A stretch of 64,000 bases of DNA from Sulfitobacter sp. D7 (GTDB lineage: Bacteria; Pseudomonadota; Alphaproteobacteria; Rhodobacterales; Rhodobacteraceae), in assembly GCF_003611275.1 (NCBI RefSeq), contig NZ_CP020694.1, positions 62,001-126,000 on the forward strand, written 5' to 3'. The notes below the pieces were generated by a model, which had not been told where the DNA came from, made no database searches, and was given only the letters and a program-made list of their open reading frames with translations. A program made the position numbers and the translations under genes. Below are positions 1 to 62,657 of the stretch, in pieces (position 1 is the first letter of the stretch; the number at the start of each line of letters is the position of its first letter).

Positions 1-1306
1 GCTCCAGCGCCCGCGCCAATTGCTGAACGTTAGAGCGCGACTGCGCGTCAAGCCGGATCGAGCCTGCCTCGAACCGGAAAGAGGTCGTCAGCCGCGCCAT
101 CGGCACCAACGTCGCCGTCATGCGCTGCAATTCTTCCAGCGGGGTTTCGATCCCCGCCGTGATAATGGCATTGGCAAAGCGGTTGCCCTGTTCCTCTACC
201 GGGATTTCTTCGGGCGTTTGATCCACGAAACCGGCCCTACGGATCACGATCTGCGCCGAGGGGCCGCGGGTGAAGGCCAGAAACTCGCGCGTGATCAGCG
301 GCAGCCGACGCGCCGGGAAATAGAGGAACATCGGCGCGGTCAGCGGGTAGTCTTCGGTCTTGATCGTGCGCCGCGCGGCATCCAGCGCAAAGCCACAGTT
401 GCCGCCAAGGGTCAGCACCTCGGTCCCGCCCTGTTCGGCATAGCTGGTGATCCCAAGGGCAAAGACATCCCGCGCGACCGCCTCTGCCAGCGCGTCGGGC
501 ATGGTGTGGCGCGTGACATCGCCGCTCAGTTCCAGCCCGGCGGGCGTTAATACCTGATCCACAATGGCTTGGCTCAAGCCGCTGTCGGCGGTGGGCAGAT
601 GCAGTTCAATGGGCGCGTCCGGCCCACCTAGGCGCTGCCAGTTCTTAATCTCACCGGAAAACACCCGGGCCAAGGTCAACGGCGAGATCTGTTTCACCGG
701 ATTGGACGGGGCAACCACAGGCACCACCGCATCAAGCGCCAGCACCCGGCTGCGATTGGCGCCGGTCAGATCGCCCAGCCCCAACTCGCGGGCATTTATC
801 CGCTCCTCGCGGCGCACTTCGCGCAGGGCCATCACCACATCGGCCTCATCCGCCAGAAGATCGGCAAAGCCTTCGTTGGTGTTGGTCGCCCGGAAATCAA
901 ATCGCGCAGCCAGTTTGCCATCATCCTGACGCGAAAGCAGAAGCGCGAAACGTCCGCCTTCCCCGTCTTCGCGGTTGACCGTATAGCCCTGCCGCGCCGC
1001 GAAGGCTTCGATCAGCGCGGGCATCAGCACCGCCCCCATGGTCGCCGAGCCCGAGAACCGCACCTCGGCCACGAAATCCTCAAGGTTGGGGCAACCCGGC
1101 CCGGCGCAGGACACGCCACTGCTGTCGACGGTCAGCTCGCCGTAGTCGGTTTCGACGCGATAGAATTCGCCGTCAAAGCCCAGCAAGGTGCCGCTGAGTT
1201 CAACGCTGCCATCGCGCGAGGTCAGCGCGATATCCTGCGCCGCGCCCGTAACCGCCGTAAAAAGCAAAAGTGCGGCGCTGATCGCCGCACGTTTCAACCC
1301 GTTCAT
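1..1306 (-). CDS. Exported phosphate-binding-like protein with OmpA-type C-terminal domain (partial)
   Basis: The reading frame is open from an ATG at 1306 down to the window edge, about 435 codons, so the C-terminus is missing. It begins with a signal peptide (two basic residues, a hydrophobic core, cleavage near Ala-Ala-Gln at 22-24). The middle resembles PstS-type phosphate-binding proteins, with an early 'RFSGSATMG' stretch and a 'SGEIKNWQRLGG' motif near residue 215. The last visible residues (SIRLDAQSRSNVQQLARAL) match the start of an OmpA-like peptidoglycan-binding domain. A periplasmic ligand sensor tethered to the cell wall is an inference. The gene follows 1326-2297 with a 19-base gap, probably in one transcript. 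Confidence 0.75.
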   Translation of the reverse strand, partial: MNGLKRAAISAALLLFTAVTGAAQDIALTSRDGSVELSGTLLGFDGEFYRVETDYGELTVDSSGVSCAGPGCPNLEDFVAEVRFSGSATMGAVLMPALIEAFAARQGYTVNREDGEGGRFALLLSRQDDGKLAARFDFRATNTNEGFADLLADEADVVMALREVRREERINARELGLGDLTGANRSRVLALDAVVPVVAPSNPVKQISPLTLARVFSGEIKNWQRLGGPDAPIELHLPTADSGLSQAIVDQVLTPAGLELSGDVTRHTMPDALAEAVARDVFALGITSYAEQGGTEVLTLGGNCGFALDAARRTIKTEDYPLTAPMFLYFPARRLPLITREFLAFTRGPSAQIVIRRAGFVDQTPEEIPVEEQGNRFANAIITAGIETPLEELQRMTATLVPMARLTTSFRFEAGSIRLDAQSRSNVQQLARALE

Positions 1307-1325
1307 CAAGACCTACCCGGTTGCG

Positions 1326-2297
1326 TCAGTTCTGCGCGACTTTCAGGTCTTGGAGCAAATTATTCAACACCAGAAAGTTGCCAACCGCATCACACTCCGG
1401 CACGGCGAGGGTCAAGTTCTGGGTTTTCACTGGATCGTCGCCACGCAATTCCAGCGCCTGGGCTTCGATCTCAAGCCCGCAGTTGGCCTCGCTCACCTCT
1501 GCCTCGACACTGAGCGCGACATCGCCCTCCTGCGCCGCTTTGGCGACCGGGAAGCTATAGACTTCGGCCATCAACGGCTCAGCGGTGTCGGTGTCGCCAT
1601 TGCGGGTCATGAAGCCGCCTTCGCCCAGAACGGCAGCGGTCATATCGCGCGGGGCGCCGGACCAGACATGGCCCGCATCGCCGTAATCCGCGCCGAACTC
1701 ACGGGCGTGAAGCTCAAACCCCGCGGTGCCTTTCCATTGCAGCACGACACGGTTGAAATCAGACAATTCGGGCACGGTGGTCTGCGCCACAGCGCCGTCA
1801 CCATTGCCAAAGGCAAGGATGAACACAGCCTCTTCCGCGAGGGCCGGGACGGAGACGGACAACCGCCCTTTGTCATCGGTGACTTCGGTAAAGATCATGC
1901 CGTTGTGGTGCACGGTCAGCCGTTCATTCGGCAGACAGGCCGCATCCAAGCTGAGCTTCACCATAGCGGCGGCCACGGCGTCTGCAGTGGCGATGATATC
2001 GCAGGTCGCGGGGATCGCGGTGCTGTGGCTCTCAGGTGCGGGCGGCAGGCTTTGAGGGGCTGCGGCTTTGACCACCCGGTCATCCAGCGTCGGCAACGCG
2101 ATGGGACTGTCCAGCGCGGCAGAGGTCAGGGTGATGCCCTCAACTTCGAGCAGCGCGCCATTGTCGGCCACCAGACGCTGCGCCTCAGCCGCGCCATAAC
2201 GCTGCTGCGCCGTGTCAGAGCTTTGCATGACATAGCCGATGCCCACGGCACAGGTGAGAGTGCCGACAGCCGTCAGAATTTCTTTAGTGCGCCACAT
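1326..2297 (-). CDS. Conserved hypothetical protein with N-terminal membrane anchor
   Basis: 323 residues. A hydrophobic segment at about residues 8-24 suggests one membrane anchor or an uncleaved signal, with the rest in the periplasm. The body is acidic, contains a proline/alanine linker around 90-100 and a few cysteines (for example in 'ATCDII', 'AACLPN' and 'EANCGL') that could form disulfides. I recognise no catalytic motif. It lies just downstream of secA and just upstream of the phosphate-binding/OmpA gene, so it may belong with the latter. Its Shine-Dalgarno sequence lies inside a hairpin (see 2301-2331). Function unknown. Confidence 0.75.
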   Translation of the reverse strand: MWRTKEILTAVGTLTCAVGIGYVMQSSDTAQQRYGAAEAQRLVADNGALLEVEGITLTSAALDSPIALPTLDDRVVKAAAPQSLPPAPESHSTAIPATCDIIATADAVAAAMVKLSLDAACLPNERLTVHHNGMIFTEVTDDKGRLSVSVPALAEEAVFILAFGNGDGAVAQTTVPELSDFNRVVLQWKGTAGFELHAREFGADYGDAGHVWSGAPRDMTAAVLGEGGFMTRNGDTDTAEPLMAEVYSFPVAKAAQEGDVALSVEAEVSEANCGLEIEAQALELRGDDPVKTQNLTLAVPECDAVGNFLVLNNLLQDLKVAQN

Positions 2298-2300
2298 GAC

Positions 2301-2331
2301 AAGTCTCCTTCAACGGATTCGTTGGAGACTT
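2301..2331 (-). promoter_or_regulatory. Hairpin overlapping the Shine-Dalgarno of the gene after secA
   Basis: AAGTCTCC (2301-2308) pairs with GGAGACTT (2324-2331), and an inner AACG/CGTT stem (2312-2315 with 2320-2323) closes a GATT loop, leaving a 3-base bulge. On the minus strand the 3' arm holds the GGAG ribosome-binding sequence of the 323-residue gene, which starts at 2297. It could limit translation initiation or act as a partial terminator between secA and this gene. There is no run of T after the stem, which favours the first reading. Confidence 0.5.
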
Positions 2332-2399
2332 TATGAGCGGGGATCAGGGCCGGGGTATGGCCCTGAAACGCCGAGTTATGGGCGAAAAGATGTCGCGGC

Positions 2400-5102
2400 T
2401 CAGGTGATCTGGCCGTGGCAGTGCTTGAACTTCTTGCCAGAACCGCAGGGGCAGAGATCGTTCCGGCCCGGGTTGCCCCATGTGGACGGATCGTTTTCGT
2501 CAAAGCCCGGTGCGGCAGCCTCGGCCTGCTCAGATGCCTCATCTGCGGCCTCGGTGGCAGCGGCCTGCATGGCGGCCTGACGGGTGGCCATTTCCTGCAT
2601 CATCTCGCGACGCTGCTCTTCGCTCATCGGTTGGATTTGCCCCAGTTTCTGGGTCACGTCCTGCCGCAGACTGTCGAGCATCGTCTCGAACAGTTGGAAG
2701 GCTTCGTTCTTATATTCGTTCAGCGGATCGCGCTGCGCGTAGCTGCGAAAGCCCACGACCGACCGCAGATGCTCCAGCGTCAGCAGGTGGTCGCGCCATT
2801 TGGTGTCGATGGCCTGCAACAACAACTGTTTCTCGATGTTGCGCATGTTCTCTTCGCCGAAAGCCTCGGCCTTTTTGGCCATCAGCTCATCCGTGGCTTG
2901 CATCAGACGGTCGCGGATCACGTCATCATCCACACCGTCTTCTTCGCACCATGCGATGATCGGCACGTCGACGTTGAGCTGTTCGATCACCGCGGCATAG
3001 AAACCTTGGGTGTCCCACTGATCGGCGTAGGTTTTGGGCGGCATATAGGTGTCGATCAGATCGTCGATCACCTGCTCGCGCATGTCGGTGACGATCTCAT
3101 TGAGGTTGTCCGCCTCCATGATCTCGCGGCGCTGGCCAAAGATCACTTTACGCTGCTCGTTCATCACGTCGTCGAACTTCAAAAGCTGCTTGCGGATGTC
3201 AAAGTTGCGGCCCTCGACCTTCGCCTGCGCGCGCTCCAGCGATTTGTTCACCCAAGGGTGCACGATGGCTTCGCCTTCTTTCAGGCCCAGCGTGGTCAGC
3301 ACCTTCTCCAGCCGTTCCGAGCCGAAGATACGCATCAAGTCATCTTCGAGCGACAGGAAGAAAGAGGTGCGGCCCGGATCGCCCTGACGGCCCGAACGGC
3401 CCCGCAACTGGTTGTCGATGCGGCGGCTCTCGTGACGCTCGGACGCCAGTACGTAAAGGCCACCGGCCTCTAGGACCTTTTGCTTTTCCTCGGCGTGCTG
3501 CGCTTCGATCTGGGCGCGGATGTTGGCCGGATCGGCCTCCGGATCGGCATCCAGCGCGTCGAGCACTTTCAGCTCGACGTTGCCGCCCAGCTGAATGTCG
3601 GTGCCGCGGCCCGCCATGTTGGTGGCGATGGTCACGGCGCCCAGCTTGCCAGCTTCGGCGATGATCTGCGCTTCTTGCTCGTGCTGGCGGGCGTTGAGCA
3701 CGTTATGCTCGATCCCGTCGGCGGTCAGCATGGCGCTGAGCTGTTCAGACTTTTCGATCGAGGTGGTGCCGACAAGGCAAGGCTGACCCTTGGCGTGGGC
3801 CTCTTTCACCTTTTCAATCATGGCCTCGTATTTTTCGCGCGCGGTGCGGTAAACGGCATCGTCTTCGTCGACACGGGCAATCGGCACGTTGGTCGGCACT
3901 TCGACAACGCCAAGGCCGTAAATCTCGGCGAATTCCTCGGCTTCGGTCAGGGCCGTGCCGGTCATGCCGCCCAGTTTGTTGTAAAGACGGAAGTAGTTCT
4001 GGAAGGTAACGCTTGCGAGGGTCACGTTCTCAGGCTGGATATCAACGCCCTCTTTGGCCTCGATCGCTTGGTGCAGACCATCCGACAAGCGGCGGCCCGG
4101 CATCATGCGACCGGTGAATTCGTCGATCAGCGTCACCGCGCCATCGCGGACGATGTAATCTTTGTCGCGCTGGAACAGCTTGTGCGCGCGCAGACCTTGG
4201 TTGACGTGGTGCACGATGGTCGTGCTTTCGGGATCATAAAGGGTCATCCCCTCTTCGATCAGATCACGGGCGCGCAGTTGCTCTTCGAGGAACTCGTTGC
4301 CCTCATCGGTGAAGGTCACATTGCGGGTTTTCTCGTCCAGCTCGTAATGCTCTTCGGTCAGCGAGGGGATCAGCGTGTCGATGATCTGATACATCTCCGA
4401 GCGGTCCTGCGAGGGGCCAGAGATAATCAGCGGCGTCCGCGCTTCGTCGATCAAGATACTGTCGACCTCGTCCACGATGGCAAAGTTATGCCCGCGCTGC
4501 AGCATGTCCGACAGGTTCGACTTCATGTTGTCGCGCAGATAGTCGAAGCCCAACTCGTTGTTGGTGGCATAGGTGACGTCGCAGGCATAGGCCGCGCGCT
4601 TTTGATCTTCGGGCATGCCGGAATAGGCGACCCCGGTGGTCAGACCCAACGCGCCAAAGACTTTGCCCATCCATTCGGCGTCACGTTTGGCGAGGTATTC
4701 GTTCACCGTCACCACATGCACGCCTTTATGCGTGAGCCCGTTGAGGTAGGCCGCGAAGGTCGCGGTCAGGGTCTTGCCCTCACCGGTCTTCTGCTCGGCG
4801 ATATTGCCTTGATGCAGGAAGATGCCGCCCAGAAGCTGGGTGTCGAAGGCGCGCAGGCCAAGGGTGCGGCGCGCAGCCTCGCGGCAGTTGGCAAAGGCTT
4901 CGGGCAGCAGATCGTCAAGGTCCTCGCCCGCATTGGCCCGTTTGGCCAACTCTTCCGTGCGCAGCTTGATCTCGTCGTCGCTTAGCTTTTCGAATTCAGG
5001 CTCCAGCGCATTGATCCGTGCCACAAGCGGACGGGTCGCCTTGATCATCCGGTCGTTTGGCGTGCCAAAGACCTTTTTGGCGATTGTTCCGATACCCAGC
5101 AT
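2400..5102 (-). CDS. secA: Protein translocase subunit SecA
   Basis: ATPase motor that drives unfolded preproteins through SecYEG at the inner membrane. 900 residues, the usual length. The Walker A sequence TGEGKT is at about 106-111 and the DEAD-type box '[15 protein letters not shown]' at about 200. The end carries the zinc-binding signature with C884, C886, C895 and H896 that contacts SecB, and secB is also in this window. The start at 5102 gives the family's '[13 protein letters not shown]' N-terminus and has a GGGAG ribosome site just upstream. A longer in-frame reading to 5225 adds 41 unconserved residues and was rejected. It is divergent from the parvulin gene. Confidence 0.97.
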
Positions 5103-42303: not shown

Positions 42304-44949
42304 GTGCAGACAGAAAAAGTAACGCCAATGATGGCGCAATATCTTGAGCTTAAAGCGGACCACGCGGATGCGCTGCTGTTCTACCGCATGGGCGATTTTT
42401 ACGAGATGTTTTTCGACGATGCCGTGGCCGCTGCCGAAGCGCTGGACATCGCGCTGACCAAACGCGGCAAGCATCAGGGCAAGGACATCGCCATGTGTGG
42501 CGTGCCGGTCCATGCTGCCGAAGGCTATCTGTTGACGCTGATCCGCAAGGGCTTTCGCGTGGCGGTCTGCGAGCAGATGGAAAGCCCCGCCGAGGCCAAG
42601 AAACGCGGCTATAAGTCAGTCGTGAAACGCGATGTGGTGCGGCTGGTGACACCCGGCACCCTGACCGAAGAGAGCCTGCTGGAAGCCCGCCGTCACAACT
42701 ACCTCGCGGCCTTTGCCGAGGTCCGTGACGCCTGCGCGATGGCATGGGTCGATATATCGACCGGCGCATTCCACGTGATGCCCTTGGCGCAGGTTCGTCT
42801 GGGGCCGGAACTGGCCCGCCTCTCGCCGTCTGAATTGATCGTCTCTGAGGCGAAAGAGAGTGAATTGCACGAAGTCGTCTCTGATTTCGGGATCGCGTTG
42901 ACGGGCTTGGCCCGCTCGGCCTTTGACAGCACCAGCGCGGAAAAGCGGGTCTGCGACCTGTTTGATATCGCGACGCTTGAGGCATTCGGCAGCTTCACAC
43001 GCGCGGAAGTGTCGGCCATGGGAGCGGTAATAGAATACCTAACAATCACGCAACGCGGCAAGCTGCCCCTGCTCCGCCCCCCGCAGAAAGAGGCCGAAGC
43101 GCGTACCGTACAGATCGACGCGGCAACCCGGCGCAATCTGGAACTGACGCATTCTCTGAATGGCGGACGCGGCGGGTCTTTGCTGTCGATCATGGACAAT
43201 ACCGTCACTGCCGGGGGCGCGCGCCTGCTGGAACGGCGGATCTCAAGCCCCTCGCGGGTCGTTGACGTGGTGTCCGCCCGCGCCGATGCGGTCAGCTTTG
43301 CCCATGAGAATGCCCGTCTTGCCGAAGACATGCGCCGTCGGCTGCGCAATGTTCCGGACCTCGACCGCGCATTGTCGCGACTTTCGCTTGACCGGGGCGG
43401 CCCGCGTGAACTTGCCGCGATCCGCAACGGGTTGATCGAAGCCGAGGCTTTACACCAGAGCCTAACACAACAGGAACTGCCAGATCTGCTGCGCGAGGCC
43501 GCCGAAGGTTTGCAGGGTCATGGCGACCTCATCGACCTGCTGGATCAAGCCTTAGTCGCCGAACCGCCGCTGATGGTGCGGGATGGCGGCTTCATCGCGC
43601 CCGGTCACGATGGAGACCTCGACGCCGCGCGCGAGTTGCGCGACGAAGGGCGCGGCGTAATCGCGGGCATGCAGCAGCAATTTGTTTCTGACACGGGGAT
43701 TTCCTCGCTCAAGATCAAGCATAACAATGTCTTGGGCTATTTCGTCGAATGCACCGCGACCCATGCGGAAAAAATGCTCTCTCCGCCGCTGTCAGAGACC
43801 TTTATCCACCGTCAGACAACGGCGAACCAAGTGCGGTTCACCACCGTCGAACTGTCTGAGTTGGAGACGAAAATCCTCAACGCTGGCAACCATGCGCAGG
43901 AGATCGAAAAACGGCTCTACGAAAGCCTTCGGAGTGCCATTTTGGAACATGCAGCAGAGATTGGCCAAACCTCTGCCGGGCTGGCCGAGGTCGACCTTGC
44001 GACAGGTCTGGCCGATCTTGCGCGGAGCGAGAATTGGACCCGCCCGCGCGTTGATATGTCTCGGGCATTCGACATCAAAGGCGGGCGGCATCCGGTGGTT
44101 GAGCGCGCTTTGACCCAACAATCGGGCGAGCCTTTCATCGCCAATGACTGCGACCTTAGTGCCGAGGGCGAAGCCGCGAACATCTGGCTGCTGACCGGCC
44201 CGAACATGGCCGGTAAATCGACCTTCCTGCGGCAGAACGCCCTGATTGCGCTGATGGCGCAAATGGGCAGTTTCGTGCCCGCAAGCTCGGCCCATATCGG
44301 CGTTATCAGCCAGCTTTTCAGCCGCGTCGGCGCGTCGGACGATCTGGCGCGCGGGCGCTCGACCTTCATGGTGGAGATGGTCGAAACCGCCGCGATCCTG
44401 AACCAAGCGGATGACCGCGCCTTGGTCATCCTTGATGAAATTGGCCGCGGCACGGCCACTTATGATGGCCTCTCTATCGCTTGGGCGACGCTGGAACATC
44501 TGCACGACGTTAACCGGACACGGGCGCTGTTTGCCACGCACTATCATGAAATGACGGCGCTGGCGGGCAAGCTGCCGGGTGTCGACAATGCCACGGTAGC
44601 GGTCAAGGAATGGGAGGGCGAGGTCGTCTTTCTCCATGAGGTGCGCAAAGGCGCGGCAGACCGGTCTTACGGGGTGCAGGTCGCGCAACTGGCGGGCCTG
44701 CCTGCGCCGGTGATCGCACGCGCCCGCGTGGTGCTGGAGGCGCTGGAAAAAGGCGAGCGCGAAGGCGGCGCGACGCAAAAGACCCTGATCGACGATCTGC
44801 CGCTGTTCGCCGTCAGCCCGACTCCTCAGCCGAAGCCCGCGACGACATCGGCTGTCGAGGAAAGGCTGAAAGAGATCATCCCCGATGAACTCTCCCCCCG
44901 TGAAGCGCTTGAGCTGATCTACAAACTGAAAGAGGCGGCCAAATCCTGA
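42304..44949 (+). CDS. mutS: DNA mismatch repair protein MutS
   Basis: Recognises mismatches and starts repair. 881 residues, full length. The N-terminal mismatch-binding 'LFYRMGDFYEMFFDDA' (Phe-x-Glu) is at about 26-41; the ATPase has Walker A 'GPNMAGKST', 'SRVGASDDLARGRSTF' and Walker B 'ALVILDEIGRGT'. The C-terminal short helix region is present. A GTG start at 42304 is used; no better ATG precedes the conserved 'TPMMAQYL'. Intact mismatch repair matters because dnaQ is broken in this window. Confidence 0.95.
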   Translation: MQTEKVTPMMAQYLELKADHADALLFYRMGDFYEMFFDDAVAAAEALDIALTKRGKHQGKDIAMCGVPVHAAEGYLLTLIRKGFRVAVCEQMESPAEAKKRGYKSVVKRDVVRLVTPGTLTEESLLEARRHNYLAAFAEVRDACAMAWVDISTGAFHVMPLAQVRLGPELARLSPSELIVSEAKESELHEVVSDFGIALTGLARSAFDSTSAEKRVCDLFDIATLEAFGSFTRAEVSAMGAVIEYLTITQRGKLPLLRPPQKEAEARTVQIDAATRRNLELTHSLNGGRGGSLLSIMDNTVTAGGARLLERRISSPSRVVDVVSARADAVSFAHENARLAEDMRRRLRNVPDLDRALSRLSLDRGGPRELAAIRNGLIEAEALHQSLTQQELPDLLREAAEGLQGHGDLIDLLDQALVAEPPLMVRDGGFIAPGHDGDLDAARELRDEGRGVIAGMQQQFVSDTGISSLKIKHNNVLGYFVECTATHAEKMLSPPLSETFIHRQTTANQVRFTTVELSELETKILNAGNHAQEIEKRLYESLRSAILEHAAEIGQTSAGLAEVDLATGLADLARSENWTRPRVDMSRAFDIKGGRHPVVERALTQQSGEPFIANDCDLSAEGEAANIWLLTGPNMAGKSTFLRQNALIALMAQMGSFVPASSAHIGVISQLFSRVGASDDLARGRSTFMVEMVETAAILNQADDRALVILDEIGRGTATYDGLSIAWATLEHLHDVNRTRALFATHYHEMTALAGKLPGVDNATVAVKEWEGEVVFLHEVRKGAADRSYGVQVAQLAGLPAPVIARARVVLEALEKGEREGGATQKTLIDDLPLFAVSPTPQPKPATTSAVEERLKEIIPDELSPREALELIYKLKEAAKS

Positions 44950-57542: not shown

Positions 57543-58372
57543 GCCTGTCCAAAATCCCCCTTGCCGGTGTGATCGGATCGCCCATCGCGCATTCCAAATC
57601 CCCGCAACTGCACCGCCATTGGCTAGAGACCTACGGCATCGCGGGTCATTATGTACCGCTTGATGTGGCGCCCGATGATCTGGAGCAGGTTTTGCGGACA
57701 CTGCCCAAGATGGGTTTCGTCGGGGTAAACCTGACGATCCCCCATAAGGAGGCGGTGATGAAGATCGCGGATCTCATCACCGACCGCGCCACATTGATTG
57801 GTGCTGCCAATACGCTGATTTTTCGTCCCGATGGCAAAATTCATGCGGATAATACGGATGGCTATGGGTTCATCGAAAACCTCAAAGCCGGTGCGCCCGA
57901 TTGGGATCCAAAATCCGGACCAGCGGCGATCTTGGGTGCAGGCGGCGCGGCGCGCGCTGTGGTCTCGTCGCTTTTGGACGCTGGGGTGCCTGAGATCTGC
58001 CTGTCGAACCGCACCAGCGTGCGGGCAGAGCAGTTGCAGCGCGATTTTGGCAGCAGGGTCAAAGTCGTCGATTGGATGCAGGCAGGCAATATGATTGATC
58101 ATGCCGCCTTGGTGGTGAACACCACATCGCTTGGTATGATTGGCAAGGGTGCTTTGCGTGTGCCGCTTGATGGGCTGCGCCCCGGCACCGTGGTGACGGA
58201 CCTCGTTTATGCGCCGCTGCGGACACATCTGCTGGAAACGGCCGAGGAAATGGGCTGTGTCACGGTCGACGGCCTTGGCATGTTATTGCATCAGGCGGTG
58301 CCCGCGTTTGAGCGTTGGTTCGGCCAGCGGCCAGAGGTTGACCGCGCCACGCGCACGGCGGTGCTGCGCTGA
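57539..58372 (+). CDS. aroE: Shikimate dehydrogenase
   Basis: NADP-dependent step of aromatic amino acid synthesis. 277 residues. 'GVIGSPIAHSKSPQLHRHW' holds the shikimate-binding Ser pair; 'NLTIPHKEAVMKIAD' the catalytic Lys; 'GAGGAARAVVSSLLDAG' the NADP loop; 'GLGMLLHQ' the C-terminal block. The overlap with maf (ATGA) and the shared base with coaE (TGATG) point to one tightly coupled operon. Confidence 0.96.
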   Translation: MSLSKIPLAGVIGSPIAHSKSPQLHRHWLETYGIAGHYVPLDVAPDDLEQVLRTLPKMGFVGVNLTIPHKEAVMKIADLITDRATLIGAANTLIFRPDGKIHADNTDGYGFIENLKAGAPDWDPKSGPAAILGAGGAARAVVSSLLDAGVPEICLSNRTSVRAEQLQRDFGSRVKVVDWMQAGNMIDHAALVVNTTSLGMIGKGALRVPLDGLRPGTVVTDLVYAPLRTHLLETAEEMGCVTVDGLGMLLHQAVPAFERWFGQRPEVDRATRTAVLR

Positions 58373-58962
58373 TGTTTCACCTCGGGCTGACCGGGTCGAT
58401 CGGCATGGGCAAATCGACTACGGCAAAGATGTTTGCCGAGGAAGGCTGCGCCGTGTGGGATGCCGATGCAGCGGTGCACCGGCTTTATGCAAAGGGGGGC
58501 GCGGCGGTCGCGCCCATGCAGGCGGCGTTTCCGACGGCGATAGAGGCTGGCGCGGTTTCTCGCGCCGCATTGAAAGAGATCATCGCCGCTGATCCCACCG
58601 CCCTGCCCCGGATCGAGTCCATCGTACATCCGCTGGTGGCCCAAGACCGGGCGACATTTCTGGCCGAAGCTCATAGCGACATTGCCGTGCTCGACATTCC
58701 GTTGCTGTTTGAAACCGGCGGCGACGCTGCGATGGACGCGGTGGTCTGCGTCACTATCCCCGACGCCGTCCAACGCGACCGCGTGCTTGCCCGTGGCACC
58801 ATGACCGAAGCGCAATTCGATGCCATCCGCGCCAAGCAGATGCCCGCCAAAGAGAAGTGCGCCCGTTCAGACTATGTGATAGTGACCGACACGCCCGACC
58901 ATGCCCGCGCGCAGGTGCGGGATGTGATCCGAGACATTAGGGAAAAGCTGCGTCATGCGTGA
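58372..58962 (+). CDS. coaE: Dephospho-CoA kinase
   Basis: Last step of coenzyme A synthesis. 196 residues. The P-loop 'GLTGSIGMGKSTTAKMF' at about 4-20, 'WDADAAVHRLYAKGGAAV' and 'VLDIPLLFETGGD' (the LLFE motif) are typical. Its end overlaps the dnaQ start by 8 bases, so dnaQ was translated from the same message before the insertion. Confidence 0.95.
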   Translation: MFHLGLTGSIGMGKSTTAKMFAEEGCAVWDADAAVHRLYAKGGAAVAPMQAAFPTAIEAGAVSRAALKEIIAADPTALPRIESIVHPLVAQDRATFLAEAHSDIAVLDIPLLFETGGDAAMDAVVCVTIPDAVQRDRVLARGTMTEAQFDAIRAKQMPAKEKCARSDYVIVTDTPDHARAQVRDVIRDIREKLRHA

Positions 58963-59169
58963 AATCGTGCTCGATACCGAAACCACCGGCTTTGACCCCG
59001 AAAGCGGCGACCGTATCGTCGAAATCGGTGCGGTCGAGCTGATGAACCATATGGCCACGGGCGAGACCTACCACCAATATATCAATCCTGAACGCGGAAT
59101 GCCGGAAGAAGCCTTTCAGGTGCACGGGCTGGGAGATGATTTCCTGCGCGACAAACCTAAGTTTGCCCA

Positions 59170-59177
59170 GATCGGCA
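59170..59177. repeat. 8-bp target-site duplication, left copy
   Basis: GATCGGCA directly precedes the left inverted repeat; the same 8 bases follow the right inverted repeat at 62183-62190. Eight bases is the usual duplication length for IS66-family elements, and identity of the two copies indicates a recent or undisturbed insertion. Confidence 0.97.
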
Positions 59178-59201
59178 GTAAGCATCAAGGGAACCCCCTC
59201 T
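59178..59201 (+). repeat. Left terminal inverted repeat of the IS66 element
   Basis: Starts GTAAGCATCAAGGGAACC and runs to CCCCTCT. Against the right end it differs at positions 10 and 17 only. Confidence 0.95.
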
Positions 59202-59274
59202 ATTTTGGGCTGATTTGAGGTGCGATTATTGCGCGAGGCTGGCGATTTGACTGGCGCAATATGAGGGTTTTGAG

Positions 59275-59640
59275 ATGAGTAAACGGCGGGTTGGGCGGGG
59301 TTCCAAATACTCGGATGAGTTCAAGCGGCGGTTGGTGGCAGAGAGCCAAGCCGATGGTGTCAGTGTGCCGATGGTTTCTCGCCGTCATGGCGTGCCGACA
59401 AGCCGGATTTATTCGTGGCGCAGCGATGACAGGTTTCAACCCGATGGGTCTGATGATGCCGGGTTCATGCCTGTTGAGATTTCAGGCGGCGATCACGATG
59501 CAGTACCGATGCTGCCGGAAGCGCGGCCTACAGCCAGCTCCCGGATAGAGATCACGCTGGAGAATGGGCGCAAGCTGAGCGTTAGCGACGGGGTTGATGC
59601 TGGCTTTGTGCTGGAACTGGCGCGGGGGCTGGCGGCATGA
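59275..59640 (+). CDS. tnpA: IS66 TnpA (Orf1), helix-turn-helix transposition protein
   Basis: 121 residues. The N-terminal half has a transposase_8-type helix-turn-helix ('[20 protein letters not shown]' and '[17 protein letters not shown]'); the rest is less conserved. IS66 elements use this protein with TnpB and TnpC for full transposition activity. The stop overlaps the tnpB start (ATGA), so translation is coupled. Confidence 0.92.
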
Positions 59641-59984
59641 TCCCTGTTCTGGCGGATGCGAAGATCTGGCTGGCGGCGGGTGTGACGGACATGCGGCGTG
59701 GGTTCAACGGTCTGGCGGCACAGACCGCGCAGGTTCTGGCGGGCGATCCCTATTCCGGCCATCTGTTTTTGTTCCGGGGACGGCGAGGTGATCAGATCAA
59801 GATGATCTGGTGGGACGGTCAGGGTGCATGCTTGTTCACCAAGCGCTTGGAGCGGGGTCGGTTTGTCTGGCCCACGGCCAGCGAGGGTAAAATCAACCTG
59901 AGCCGCGCGCAGTTGGCCATGCTGATGGAAGGCATAGACTGGCGCATGCCGCAGAAGACATGGCGGCCCGCGATGGTGGGCTGA
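59637..59984 (+). CDS. tnpB: IS66 TnpB (Orf2) accessory protein
   Basis: 115 residues matching the IS66 Orf2 family from end to end: '[14 protein letters not shown]', '[20 protein letters not shown]' and '[20 protein letters not shown]' with '[15 protein letters not shown]'-like ending. Role in transposition is required but not enzymatically defined. Translationally coupled to tnpA; 69 bases separate it from tnpC. Confidence 0.93.
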
Positions 59985-60053
59985 GGCAATGTTTTATGGG
60001 CTTTCTTGCTGTTTTGGGATTCCCCCTGATGTCCGATTTTGCTATGGAATGGC

Positions 60054-61757
60054 ATGCGTAAGACCCCTCCAAATCTGGCTGATCTGCCACCTGACGTGCA
60101 GGCCTTTGTAGCCGCACAAGCGGCGGAACTGGCCCGTAAGGATGCGGAGTTGTTGGGCCAATCGTTGAGCCATGCCTCCGCCCAAAAACGCCTCAAGGAT
60201 GAGATGGAAGCCGCCCTTGCTGCCGAGCGCACCGCCCATGCGCGGGCCATCCAGAGCCGAGATACCCTCATTGCTGATCTGCGCTTGCAATTGCATGGTC
60301 ACAAAAAGCACCGCTTTGGGTCAAAGTCGGAAAGCAGCGCGCAACTGGCGCTGGAACTGATCCTCGAAGAGTTGGAGATCGAGCAAGCCGCAGAGACTGA
60401 AGGTGATGGTGAGGGCCAGACGTCTTCCGAGGCAGACGTCCCAAAGCCGCCGCGCACCCCGCGCAAACGCAAGCCTTTCCCAAAGGGGCTTAAGCGGGTC
60501 AAGAAGACCATCACCCCCGGTGAGACCTGTGAAGACTGTGGTGGCCGCTTCAGGGAGCTGGGAACAGATGTTCTGGAAGAGTTGGAATATGTTCCAGGCC
60601 ATTACATCGTCAATCAGATCAACCGCCCGCGTTTGGCCTGTAGCTGCTGTGACAAGGTGGTTCAGGCGGAGATGCCAAGCCGCCCCATCCCCAAGAGCTT
60701 TGTGGGTCCCGCGCTGATGGCGCATATCCTGTGCTGCAAATACGGCTATCACCTGCCGCTCTATCGCCAAAGCCAGATGTTTGAGAACGAAGGCATCGAC
60801 CTGAGCGGATCGCTCATGGCCCTCTGGGTGGGCAAATGCACCAAGCTGCTTGAACGCGTGGCAGATGCCATCCGTGACCATGTGTTTGAGGCACAAGCCA
60901 TCTTCATGGATGATACCACGGTCAAGCTGCTCCAGAAGGGCAAAGGGCGTGGCAAAAACAAGAGCAAAACCGCACGGCTATGGGTCTATGCCCGAGATGA
61001 GAGCGCCTGGTCCGGGGCCGCGCCACCCGCCGTGTGGTATCAGTTCTCCACCAACCGAGGTGCGGAACACCCGAGCGAACATCTCAAATCCTACACGGGC
61101 TACGCCCATGCGGACGCCTATGCAGGCTATAACGATGCCTACCGCACGGGGCGCATCAAGGAGATGGCCTGTATGGCCCATGTGCGACGGGAGTTTTATG
61201 CCCTGTATGAAAGCCTGAAGCTGCCTGTGGCGGGCGAAGCGGTCTTGCGCATTCGAAAGCTCTATGACGTTGAAACACAGGCACGGTTCCTACCACCCCA
61301 TGAGCGCGTGGCCCTGCGTCAGGAACTCGCCAAGCCCATCTTTGATGATCTGGAGATCTGGCTCAAGGAGCAGTTGGGTAAAATCTCCGGCAAGACGCCA
61401 CTGGCTAAGGCCATCCGATATGCCCTCGCGCGCCTGCCAAAGGCACGGCCTTATCTCGACAACGGCTTCTTGGAAATCGACAATAACACAGCCGAGCGGG
61501 CAGTGCGTCCTGTGGCCGTTGGAAGAAAGAACTACCTCTTCATGGGGTCAGAGGCAGGCGGCAAATCCGCAGCAATCGCCTATACTCTCATCGAGACCGC
61601 AAAGATGAACAACGTCAATCCCGAAGCCTGGCTCGCTTGGGTGCTCGAACGCATCCAGGATCATCCCGTCAATCGCATCCCCCTGTTGCTACCTTGGGCA
61701 TCTCAGGGCATGATCAACGCGCAGAATGCTGAGGTCGGGGATCAACACGCCGCCTGA
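60054..61757 (+). CDS. tnpC: IS66 TnpC, DDE transposase
   Basis: 567 residues from the ATG at 60054; a TTG at 60039 would add five. The N-terminal coiled coil with many charged residues is followed by a zinc-finger-like part ('CEDCGGRF', 'CSCCDKVVQ') and the DDE domain: '[15 protein letters not shown]', '[15 protein letters not shown]' and '[20 protein letters not shown]', which supply the acidic triad. The end has the IS66 C-terminal '[17 protein letters not shown]' block. It is full length and looks active. Confidence 0.94.
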
Positions 61758-61789
61758 TCAAACTTTTCATTGACGCCTATGGAGGTAAA

Positions 61790-62119
61790 ATGGCTTGGGT
61801 TTACTTGTTCTTTGCGGGTCTTCTTGAATGTGGGTGGGTAATTGGTCTGAAATACACTCAAGGCTTCACGAAACTTCAGCCATCTGTCCTGACCGTGCTC
61901 GCAATGATCGCAAGCTTCTGGCTCTTGGCTGAAGCAATGAAAGACATTCCCGTAGGTACTGCATATGCCGTTTGGGCAGGTATTGGGGCTGTGGGCGTTG
62001 CTATTATTGGAATGACCATCTTGGGAGAGCAAAAAGACTTGGCTCGTGTCGCCTGTCTTCTCTTGATTGTTGCTGGGATTGTTGGGCTGAAACTGGTCGG
62101 AACCACGGCCAATCATTAG
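61790..62119 (+). CDS. Small multidrug resistance family exporter (Gdx/SugE-type), IS passenger
   Basis: 109-residue membrane protein with four hydrophobic helices. Essential Glu13 lies in '[19 protein letters not shown]' and the proline-rich '[20 protein letters not shown]' and '[12 protein letters not shown]' follow, closest to SugE/Gdx, which export guanidinium by proton antiport. Some relatives instead expel quaternary ammonium compounds. The gene has a GGAGGT site and begins 32 bases after tnpC, inside the inverted repeats, so it moves with the element. By eye its base composition is less GC-rich than that of its host neighbours. Confidence 0.9.
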
Positions 62120-62158
62120 CGCCGAATGACAATCAACGAGCTGCTATGATCACAGTGC

Positions 62159-62182
62159 AGAGGGGCTTCCCTGGATGCTTAC
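62159..62182 (-). repeat. Right terminal inverted repeat of the IS66 element
   Basis: Complement begins GTAAGCATCCAGGGAAGC and ends CCCCTCT. Its outer end contains an ATG (62175-62177) that opens the frame of the 3' dnaQ fragment. Confidence 0.95.
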
Positions 62183-62657
62183 GATCGGCAAGTCATTCCT
62201 CGACTTTATTGGCACGTCCAAGCTGATCATTCACAACGCTGCCTTCGACATTAAATTCCTGAACGCCGAGCTGCGCTGGATGGGTCTGCCTCAAATCCCA
62301 TGGGAGCAGGCGCTTGATACGTTGGAAATTGCGCGCAAACGCTTCCCCGGCTCGCCCGCGTCGCTTGATGCGCTCTGCCGTCGCTTCGGGATCGACAATA
62401 CCTCGCGGACGCTGCACGGCGCCCTGCTCGACAGTGAGATTCTGGCCGAAGTCTATCTGGAATTGATCGGGGGGCGGCAGCCCGACTTTGCGCTGTCATC
62501 GGCGCCCGAACGGAAATCCGGTGAGCCTGACACGCGCTGGACCCCGAAACCGCGGCCCAATCCTCTGCCCTCGCGTCTGACAGAGGCCGAAGCCGCCGCC
62601 CATGCCGAATTTGTCGGCAAGCTGGGCGACGACGCGCTGTGGAAACAGCTTGGCTGA
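62175..62657 (+). pseudogene. dnaQ: dnaQ, 3' fragment (ExoII and ExoIII motifs)
   Basis: The authentic DnaQ part resumes at 62191 with KSFLDFIGTSKL. ExoII is 'IHNAAFDIKFLN' (Asp94 in restored numbering) and ExoIII 'HGALLDSEILAEVY' (His150, Asp155). An ATG supplied by the right inverted repeat (62175) plus the duplication gives a 160-codon frame beginning M-L-T-I-G, so a truncated protein could still be made. It contains no ExoI motif. The C-terminal tail (about 190-229) that contacts the polymerase alpha subunit is intact. Confidence 0.95.
62183..62190. repeat. 8-bp target-site duplication, right copy
   Basis: GATCGGCA, identical to 59170-59177, directly after the right inverted repeat. It marks the exact insertion point in dnaQ. 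Confidence 0.97.

Follow-up and report, generated by a model that had tools for sequence, protein, structure and literature searches.

In Sulfitobacter sp. D7, an IS66-family element 3,005 bp long (59178-62182) interrupts dnaQ, the gene for the proofreading (epsilon) subunit of DNA polymerase III, after codon 74. Coordinates given without a contig name are positions in the window, the whole 64-kb stretch analysed, which corresponds to contig C1:62001-126000 in a genome of 3,963,108 bases, six contigs and 100% completeness. The element is bounded on both sides by GATCGGCA, a perfect target duplication whose 8-bp length is the rule for the IS66 family and which would arise by chance with a probability of ~1.5e-5. 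The 223 bases of dnaQ on its left (58955-59177) and the 467 bases beyond the second copy of the duplication (62191-62657) add up to 690, matching the size of the uninterrupted dnaQ in three related genomes (G026, G025 and G046) in which the site is empty. The parts of the interrupted gene are as follows.

58955-59218, forward strand: 5' part of dnaQ, with 74 native codons (Exo I, Asp7/Glu9) followed by 13 element codons and a stop; TIGR01406 positions 1-74
59170-59177: left copy of the target duplication, GATCGGCA
62183-62190: right copy of the target duplication, GATCGGCA
62175-62657, forward strand: 3' part of dnaQ, a 160-amino-acid frame with Exo II (Asp94), Exo III (His150, Asp155) and the C-terminal tail; TIGR01406 positions 71-230

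The columns of DnaQ that hold Asp7, Glu9, Asp94, His150 and Asp155 are invariant among 13 relatives. The first two of these residues lie in the first frame and the other three in the second, leaving the D-E-D-D-h set on no single chain. When scored with the TIGR01406 profile, the halves reach 112.2 and 152.5 bits, both below the cut-off of 222.7, and no single chain passes. A first-pass annotation of this DNA had placed the element between codons 74 and 75 within a perfect 8-bp duplication, had joined 59177 to 62191 to restore a 690-base dnaQ and had divided the Exo residues between the halves in this way; all of this holds. The anatomy of the locus thus supports a loss of DnaQ, as far as the sequence of this assembly can tell. 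Both halves nevertheless keep open frames, with no frame-breaking lesion in either. Upstream, coaE (58372-58962) overlaps the dnaQ start at 58955, and secB lies downstream on the opposite strand.

The same element occurs in four identical copies, a classic setting for misassembly, and a misjoin at such a repeat would leave dnaQ intact in the cell. This explanation is very improbable in light of the perfect duplication at the dnaQ site, the collinearity of G026 on both sides of the insertion (41884-121177 and 124183-171959) and the lack of any unbroken dnaQ elsewhere in the assembly.

Backup proofreading and conservation of dnaQ

The first-pass annotation had raised both a second epsilon gene and a PHP-type proofreader as possible stand-ins for DnaQ. 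Neither is supported here. Across all contigs of the genome, PF00929 matches only the two dnaQ halves, and a profile built from the 13 relatives finds no further DnaQ-type match in the whole genome at E-values up to 10; we therefore reject a second epsilon or other DEDDh exonuclease as a backup. In DnaE1, Arg11, Thr45 and Tyr213 align with three His positions of 4jom, and Glu20 aligns with an Asp of E. coli alpha; we take these positions to belong to the PHP ligand motif. According to the relevant passage of PMC12926913, an active PHP site is defined by the motif HHDHEH[C/H]DH, from which DnaE1 departs under this alignment and ligand assignment. Its PHP site looks degenerate, making the domain an unlikely proofreader, and we set this candidate aside as well. 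The mismatch-repair genes are intact, both mutS (C1:104322-106931, window 42322-44931) and mutL.

Among the 61 other genomes of the genus, 60 have a full-length PF00929 match, the exception (G049) being an 87%-complete draft of ~850 contigs. TIGR01406 has matches in 391 of an even sample of 395 family genomes with completeness of 95% or more, and 388 of them reach its cut-off. The four genomes without a match (G239, G310, G384 and G407), drafts of ~140 to 560 contigs, as well as G049, also gave no match with a DnaQ protein query, which means that dnaQ is either absent or unassembled there. We picked two low TIGR01406 scorers by E-value. In one (G086), the DnaQ matches run from residue 24 on. 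In the other (G069), a three-contig genome, dnaQ (C3:2914871-2915556) is read in two frames next to a run of six A residues; this could reflect either sequencing error or another candidate lesion. Among at least 569 named relatives found through the C-terminal half, the best 80 all have dnaQ in one open frame, and the three motif patterns for which we scanned are all present in 79 of these 80, with one (L075) lacking the third. What remains of dnaQ has its nearest named relatives in Sulfitobacter, the best at 87% amino-acid identity in a list that may omit records very near this genome. Because nearly all sampled relatives keep the gene, its loss here is unusual.

The element, its copies and plasmid C4

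The inserted element has the organization below.

59178-62182, forward strand: IS66-family element with a passenger gene (tIS66), 3,005 bp, inverted repeats matching at 22/24 positions
59275-59640, forward strand: tnpA, IS66 accessory protein; NF047595 at 74.6 bits (cut-off 74), PF01527
59637-59984, forward strand: tnpB, IS66 accessory protein; NF033819, PF05717
60039-61757, forward strand: tnpC, DDE transposase; NF033517 at 429 bits, PF03050
61790-62119, forward strand: passenger gene, SugE-type SMR exporter; NF008512 at 133.9 bits (cut-off 126), PF00893
62159-62182: right inverted repeat, containing an ATG (62175) that is in frame with the rest of dnaQ and is preceded, 9 nt upstream, by an AGAGGGG run

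The tnpC start in the public annotation of an identical element corresponds to the ATG at 60054. Membership of the IS66 family is indicated by tnpA, tnpB and the IS66-type DDE transposase, by inverted repeats that begin GTAAGC, like repeats quoted in PMC12888890, and by the 8-bp duplication at dnaQ. The sugE-like gene, which was absent from the first-pass annotation, lies between the transposase and the right repeat, and IS66 elements with such non-transposition passengers are known as tIS66 (PMC12888890, in the part defining the group). The portion of the same paper that describes ISPa75 with fosZ shows a similar tIS66 of ~3.0 kb, with tnpA, tnpB and transposase in that order and the passenger downstream of the transposase. 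By contrast, the element in dnaQ carries a SugE-type SMR exporter, resides in a marine roseobacter and has a different inverted-repeat sequence. Both of its repeats (59178-59201 and 62159-62182) read outward as AGAGGGG followed 9 nt later by ATG, and insertion of the element can, to judge from these ends, add a start codon to a gene on either side. The repeat quoted in PMC12888890 is without such an ATG in the stretch given there, indicating that the outward AGAGGGG-ATG arrangement is not general in the IS66 family.

The four copies, which show 100% identity along all 3,005 bp, lie in dnaQ, at C1:261364, at C1:738608 and at C4:8995. The copy at C1:738608-741612 has a perfect 8-bp duplication, GTAGTCTC, at its ends and interrupts a ~123-codon frame in the vicinity of a gene for an nSTAND3 NTPase (PADLOC PDC-S73). 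At C1:261364-264368, where the insertion interrupts a reverse-transcriptase-like frame with weak PADLOC matches, the perfect 8-bp duplication (TTTGGTAG on the element strand) is found 764 bp past the right end, and these 764 bp are the right flank of the C4 copy, carried along with the element. We read this arrangement as movement of adjacent plasmid DNA by IS66 through a cryptic end. The far end that was used matches the inverted repeat at 14/24 positions, the highest score among 4,977 positions within 5 kb, but its last 10 bases agree at only 5, a score that 353 positions equal or exceed, and over a wider stretch 37 of 59,976 positions score at least 14. The copy in C4 has no target duplication at its ends.

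C4 is a 105-kb plasmid. In PLSDB, two Sulfitobacter faviae plasmids, from strains SCSIO W_1865 and OXR-9, carry the element at 100% identity and share the left flank that it has in C4; their hosts came from a coral of the South China Sea and a vent plume of the Atlantic. The parts of C4 that align to these two plasmids are nearly identical to them. In 20 kb of contig C2 that we compared, identity to S. faviae is only ~89%, whereas identity to Sulfitobacter sp. W074 is 98.5%. The near-identity of C4 against this background implies that C4 moved between species recently, and on these comparisons the C4-type plasmid appears to have spread recently between species and from ocean to ocean. In G026, the genome whose chromosome is closest to ours (96.2% over 139.9 kb), the element has only diverged matches that cover part of it. 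The simplest account is that the element arrived on C4 and jumped later to the chromosomal sites, with transfer presumably running from plasmid to chromosome. Two further observations concern C4 and its element. First, ~1.4 kb at C4:54258-55657 is missing from that place in both S. faviae plasmids and is perhaps another mobile element. Second, an identical element in a further genome of the genus (G005, C33:2027-5031) shares 200 bp of the C4 right flank and none of the left.

Mutator expectation, footprint and age

Our favoured account, which we hold to be probable, is that a plasmid-borne tIS66 recently split the sole dnaQ found in this genome, leaving a polymerase III without proofreading and an expected mutator too young to show a footprint. 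A Sulfitobacter-like strain would have acquired C4 with tIS66, and the element would then have transposed to the three chromosomal sites at which copies now lie. The jump into dnaQ would have divided the DEDDh active site between two reading frames. Since the searches turned up no further DnaQ-type exonuclease and the PHP site appears inactive, polymerase III of the sequenced clone should lack proofreading. Given intact mutS and mutL, mutation would be expected at hundreds to thousands of times the normal rate, as judged from point mutants of E. coli and Caulobacter. The clone itself could be a natural mutant of recent origin, or culture could have generated or enriched it.

These expectations come from other proteobacteria that lost epsilon proofreading. 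According to the passages reporting the rates, dnaQ(G13E) raises mutation ~479-fold in Caulobacter, an alphaproteobacterium (PMC8034640); in E. coli, dnaQ L145P raised it ~1,000-fold in a mouse-gut experiment, with a growth cost restored by a dnaE change (PMC7064181), and mutD5 accumulated 13,625 substitutions in 3,481 generations (PMC6606806). Those mutators are point mutants with measured rates, whereas here a mobile element cuts the gene and the lesion is known from sequence alone. Separation of Exo I from Exo II and Exo III should nonetheless affect proofreading at least as severely, making the sequenced clone a candidate strong mutator. In the text bearing on this point, the authors of PMC7064181 (2020) knew of no dnaQ mutators in natural populations. 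Our literature search on natural dnaQ hypermutators returned only that paper, and one on dnaQ in Roseobacter returned nothing on the point; coverage was mostly open access, making both weak negatives.

Several observations weigh against this account. First, both dnaQ fragments remain in frame, and the assembly may hide an intact dnaQ allele. Second, nothing in the genome clearly supports a prolonged mutator history. When C4 and the initial 100,000 bases of each S. faviae plasmid are compared three ways (80,566 shared sites), C4 has three private substitutions (two G-to-A and one T-to-A), SCSIO W_1865 has six (three in one cluster with gaps) and OXR-9 has three; the count for C4 is not above those of its sister plasmids. 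On the chromosome, with G046 as outgroup, 2,491 substitutions fall on the branch of our strain and 2,169 on that of G026, a raw excess of 15%, which comes mainly from import-like segments. Under a cut set after the segments had been inspected, 11 of 71 two-kb segments are import-like, eight with an excess here and three with an excess in G026, and the excess vanishes in the other 60 (1,752 versus 1,738). Medians over all 71 segments are 14.47 and 14.53 per kb for our strain and G026, respectively, with 34 segments favouring our branch and 36 favouring that of G026.

Comparisons with G025 gave lopsided counts, 1,007 versus 489 with G025 as outgroup and 853 versus 1,304 for our strain against G025. 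A four-way count over 54,633 sites, leaving out 1,475 with ambiguous bases, places G026 and G025 nearer to each other than either is to our genome, which disqualifies G025 as an outgroup and these counts as a rate test. The four-way count gives 544 sites private to our genome versus 288 private to G026 plus 301 common to G026 and G025; when conflicting patterns (142 sites common to our genome and G025) are included, the figures become 686 versus 589, again a raw excess.

Finally, the load of broken genes and the replicase itself give no clear sign of a mutator. In tests that ignored stops near frame ends (6 and 4 frames), 9 of 121 G026 frames looked broken here and 5 of 120 looked broken in the reverse test; a cruder first pass had flagged 15 of 121 and 9 of 120. 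The nine comprise dnaQ, six frames with an antisense pattern, a seventh that is less clearly antisense and lies over an opposite-strand frame, and one ambiguous frame (C1:157534-158430) with a stop at 87% of its length. Among the 121, dnaQ is the only clearly broken gene. At DnaE1 sites that are invariant among 29 relatives, our strain has no private change (the comparison drew on 30 of the 61 genomes with a match). Ile73 and Asn1141, both at variable positions, are found in no other sequence of the set, and a suppressor there is possible. Neither C4, nor the filtered chromosome segments, nor the broken genes thus carry a clear footprint of raised mutation, and we reject a long-standing mutator. 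The strong mutator proposed by the first-pass annotation stands as a sound extrapolation from E. coli and Caulobacter, whereas the footprint tests lend it no clear support.

The missing footprint means that the mutator state, if true, is very recent. Our bound on its age supposes that the insertion followed the arrival of C4, in which case later mutations in C4 lie among its three private changes, for which the one-sided 95% upper limit is 7.75. This limit translates into at most 114 generations at the mutD5 rate of about 8e-7 per base per generation. With a 479-fold increase, the maximum becomes 971 generations from the E. coli wild-type rate and 1,435 from a roseobacter-like mutation rate of 1.4e-10; the calculation also uses an E. 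coli genome size. Identity of the four element copies sets weaker limits, 295 to 3,717 generations. The insertion would thus date back no more than about 100 to 1,500 generations if loss of DnaQ raises mutation as it does in E. coli or Caulobacter. Either the insertion is very recent, perhaps dating from culture, or loss of DnaQ raises mutation less than expected here.

Possible origin in culture and fate of the fragments

The first of these possibilities overlaps with our favoured account, which leaves the place of origin open. A wild-type isolate may have given rise in culture to a variant or sub-population whose insertion allele the assembly kept, a scenario that we regard as quite possible, if somewhat short of an even chance. 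With a mutator of the strength of E. coli mutD5, the age bound is on the scale of a culture (~100 generations); in addition, the genome lacks a clear footprint, and the element looks active, its three chromosomal copies all being identical. A weaker mutator, however, would permit up to ~1,400 generations, and the assembly is neutral, speaking neither for nor against an origin in culture.

The second possibility, that there is no strong mutator, could hold if the 160-residue C-terminal part still held polymerase and clamp together or if the two parts reassembled. The E. coli epsilon subunit uses its C-terminal part to bind alpha and the clamp. Here the right repeat of the element supplies ATG-Leu-Thr in frame with DnaQ residues 73-229, with AGAGGGG 9 nt upstream, and no terminator-like site occurs at 61600-62400, where transcription would read through from sugE. 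A non-proofreading epsilon fragment that holds the replicase together could therefore possibly be made, judging by these signals, and the intact frames of both halves and the absence of DnaE1 changes at otherwise invariant sites fit such a role. We nevertheless think it unlikely that the fragments avert a mutator state. Exo I is on the other chain, and we know of no case of split-epsilon complementation. Moreover, the AGAGGGG run is partly paired in a predicted fold of no special structure, not stronger than shuffles (z 0.46), and the element end also serves transposition, such that its ATG may be there by chance. More doubtful still is the idea that the strain, a free-living alphaproteobacterium, lives stably without an epsilon exonuclease, a PHP proofreader or evident compensation in DnaE1 because the element-supplied start codon would yield a structural, non-proofreading epsilon; this would be a natural separation of the two roles of epsilon.

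Taken together, the evidence indicates that the one proofreading exonuclease detected in this genome has truly, and recently, been lost through insertion of a tIS66 that was most likely brought in by a plasmid. If the insertion is a culture variant, it stands as a warning about this genome sequence. More broadly, dnaQ mutators are well known in the laboratory, and a cultured marine strain in which a newly arrived element has split the sole dnaQ found would allow the survival of a replicase without proofreading to be studied beyond E. coli. The same strain could show how the arrival of a plasmid can switch a lineage into a mutator state.

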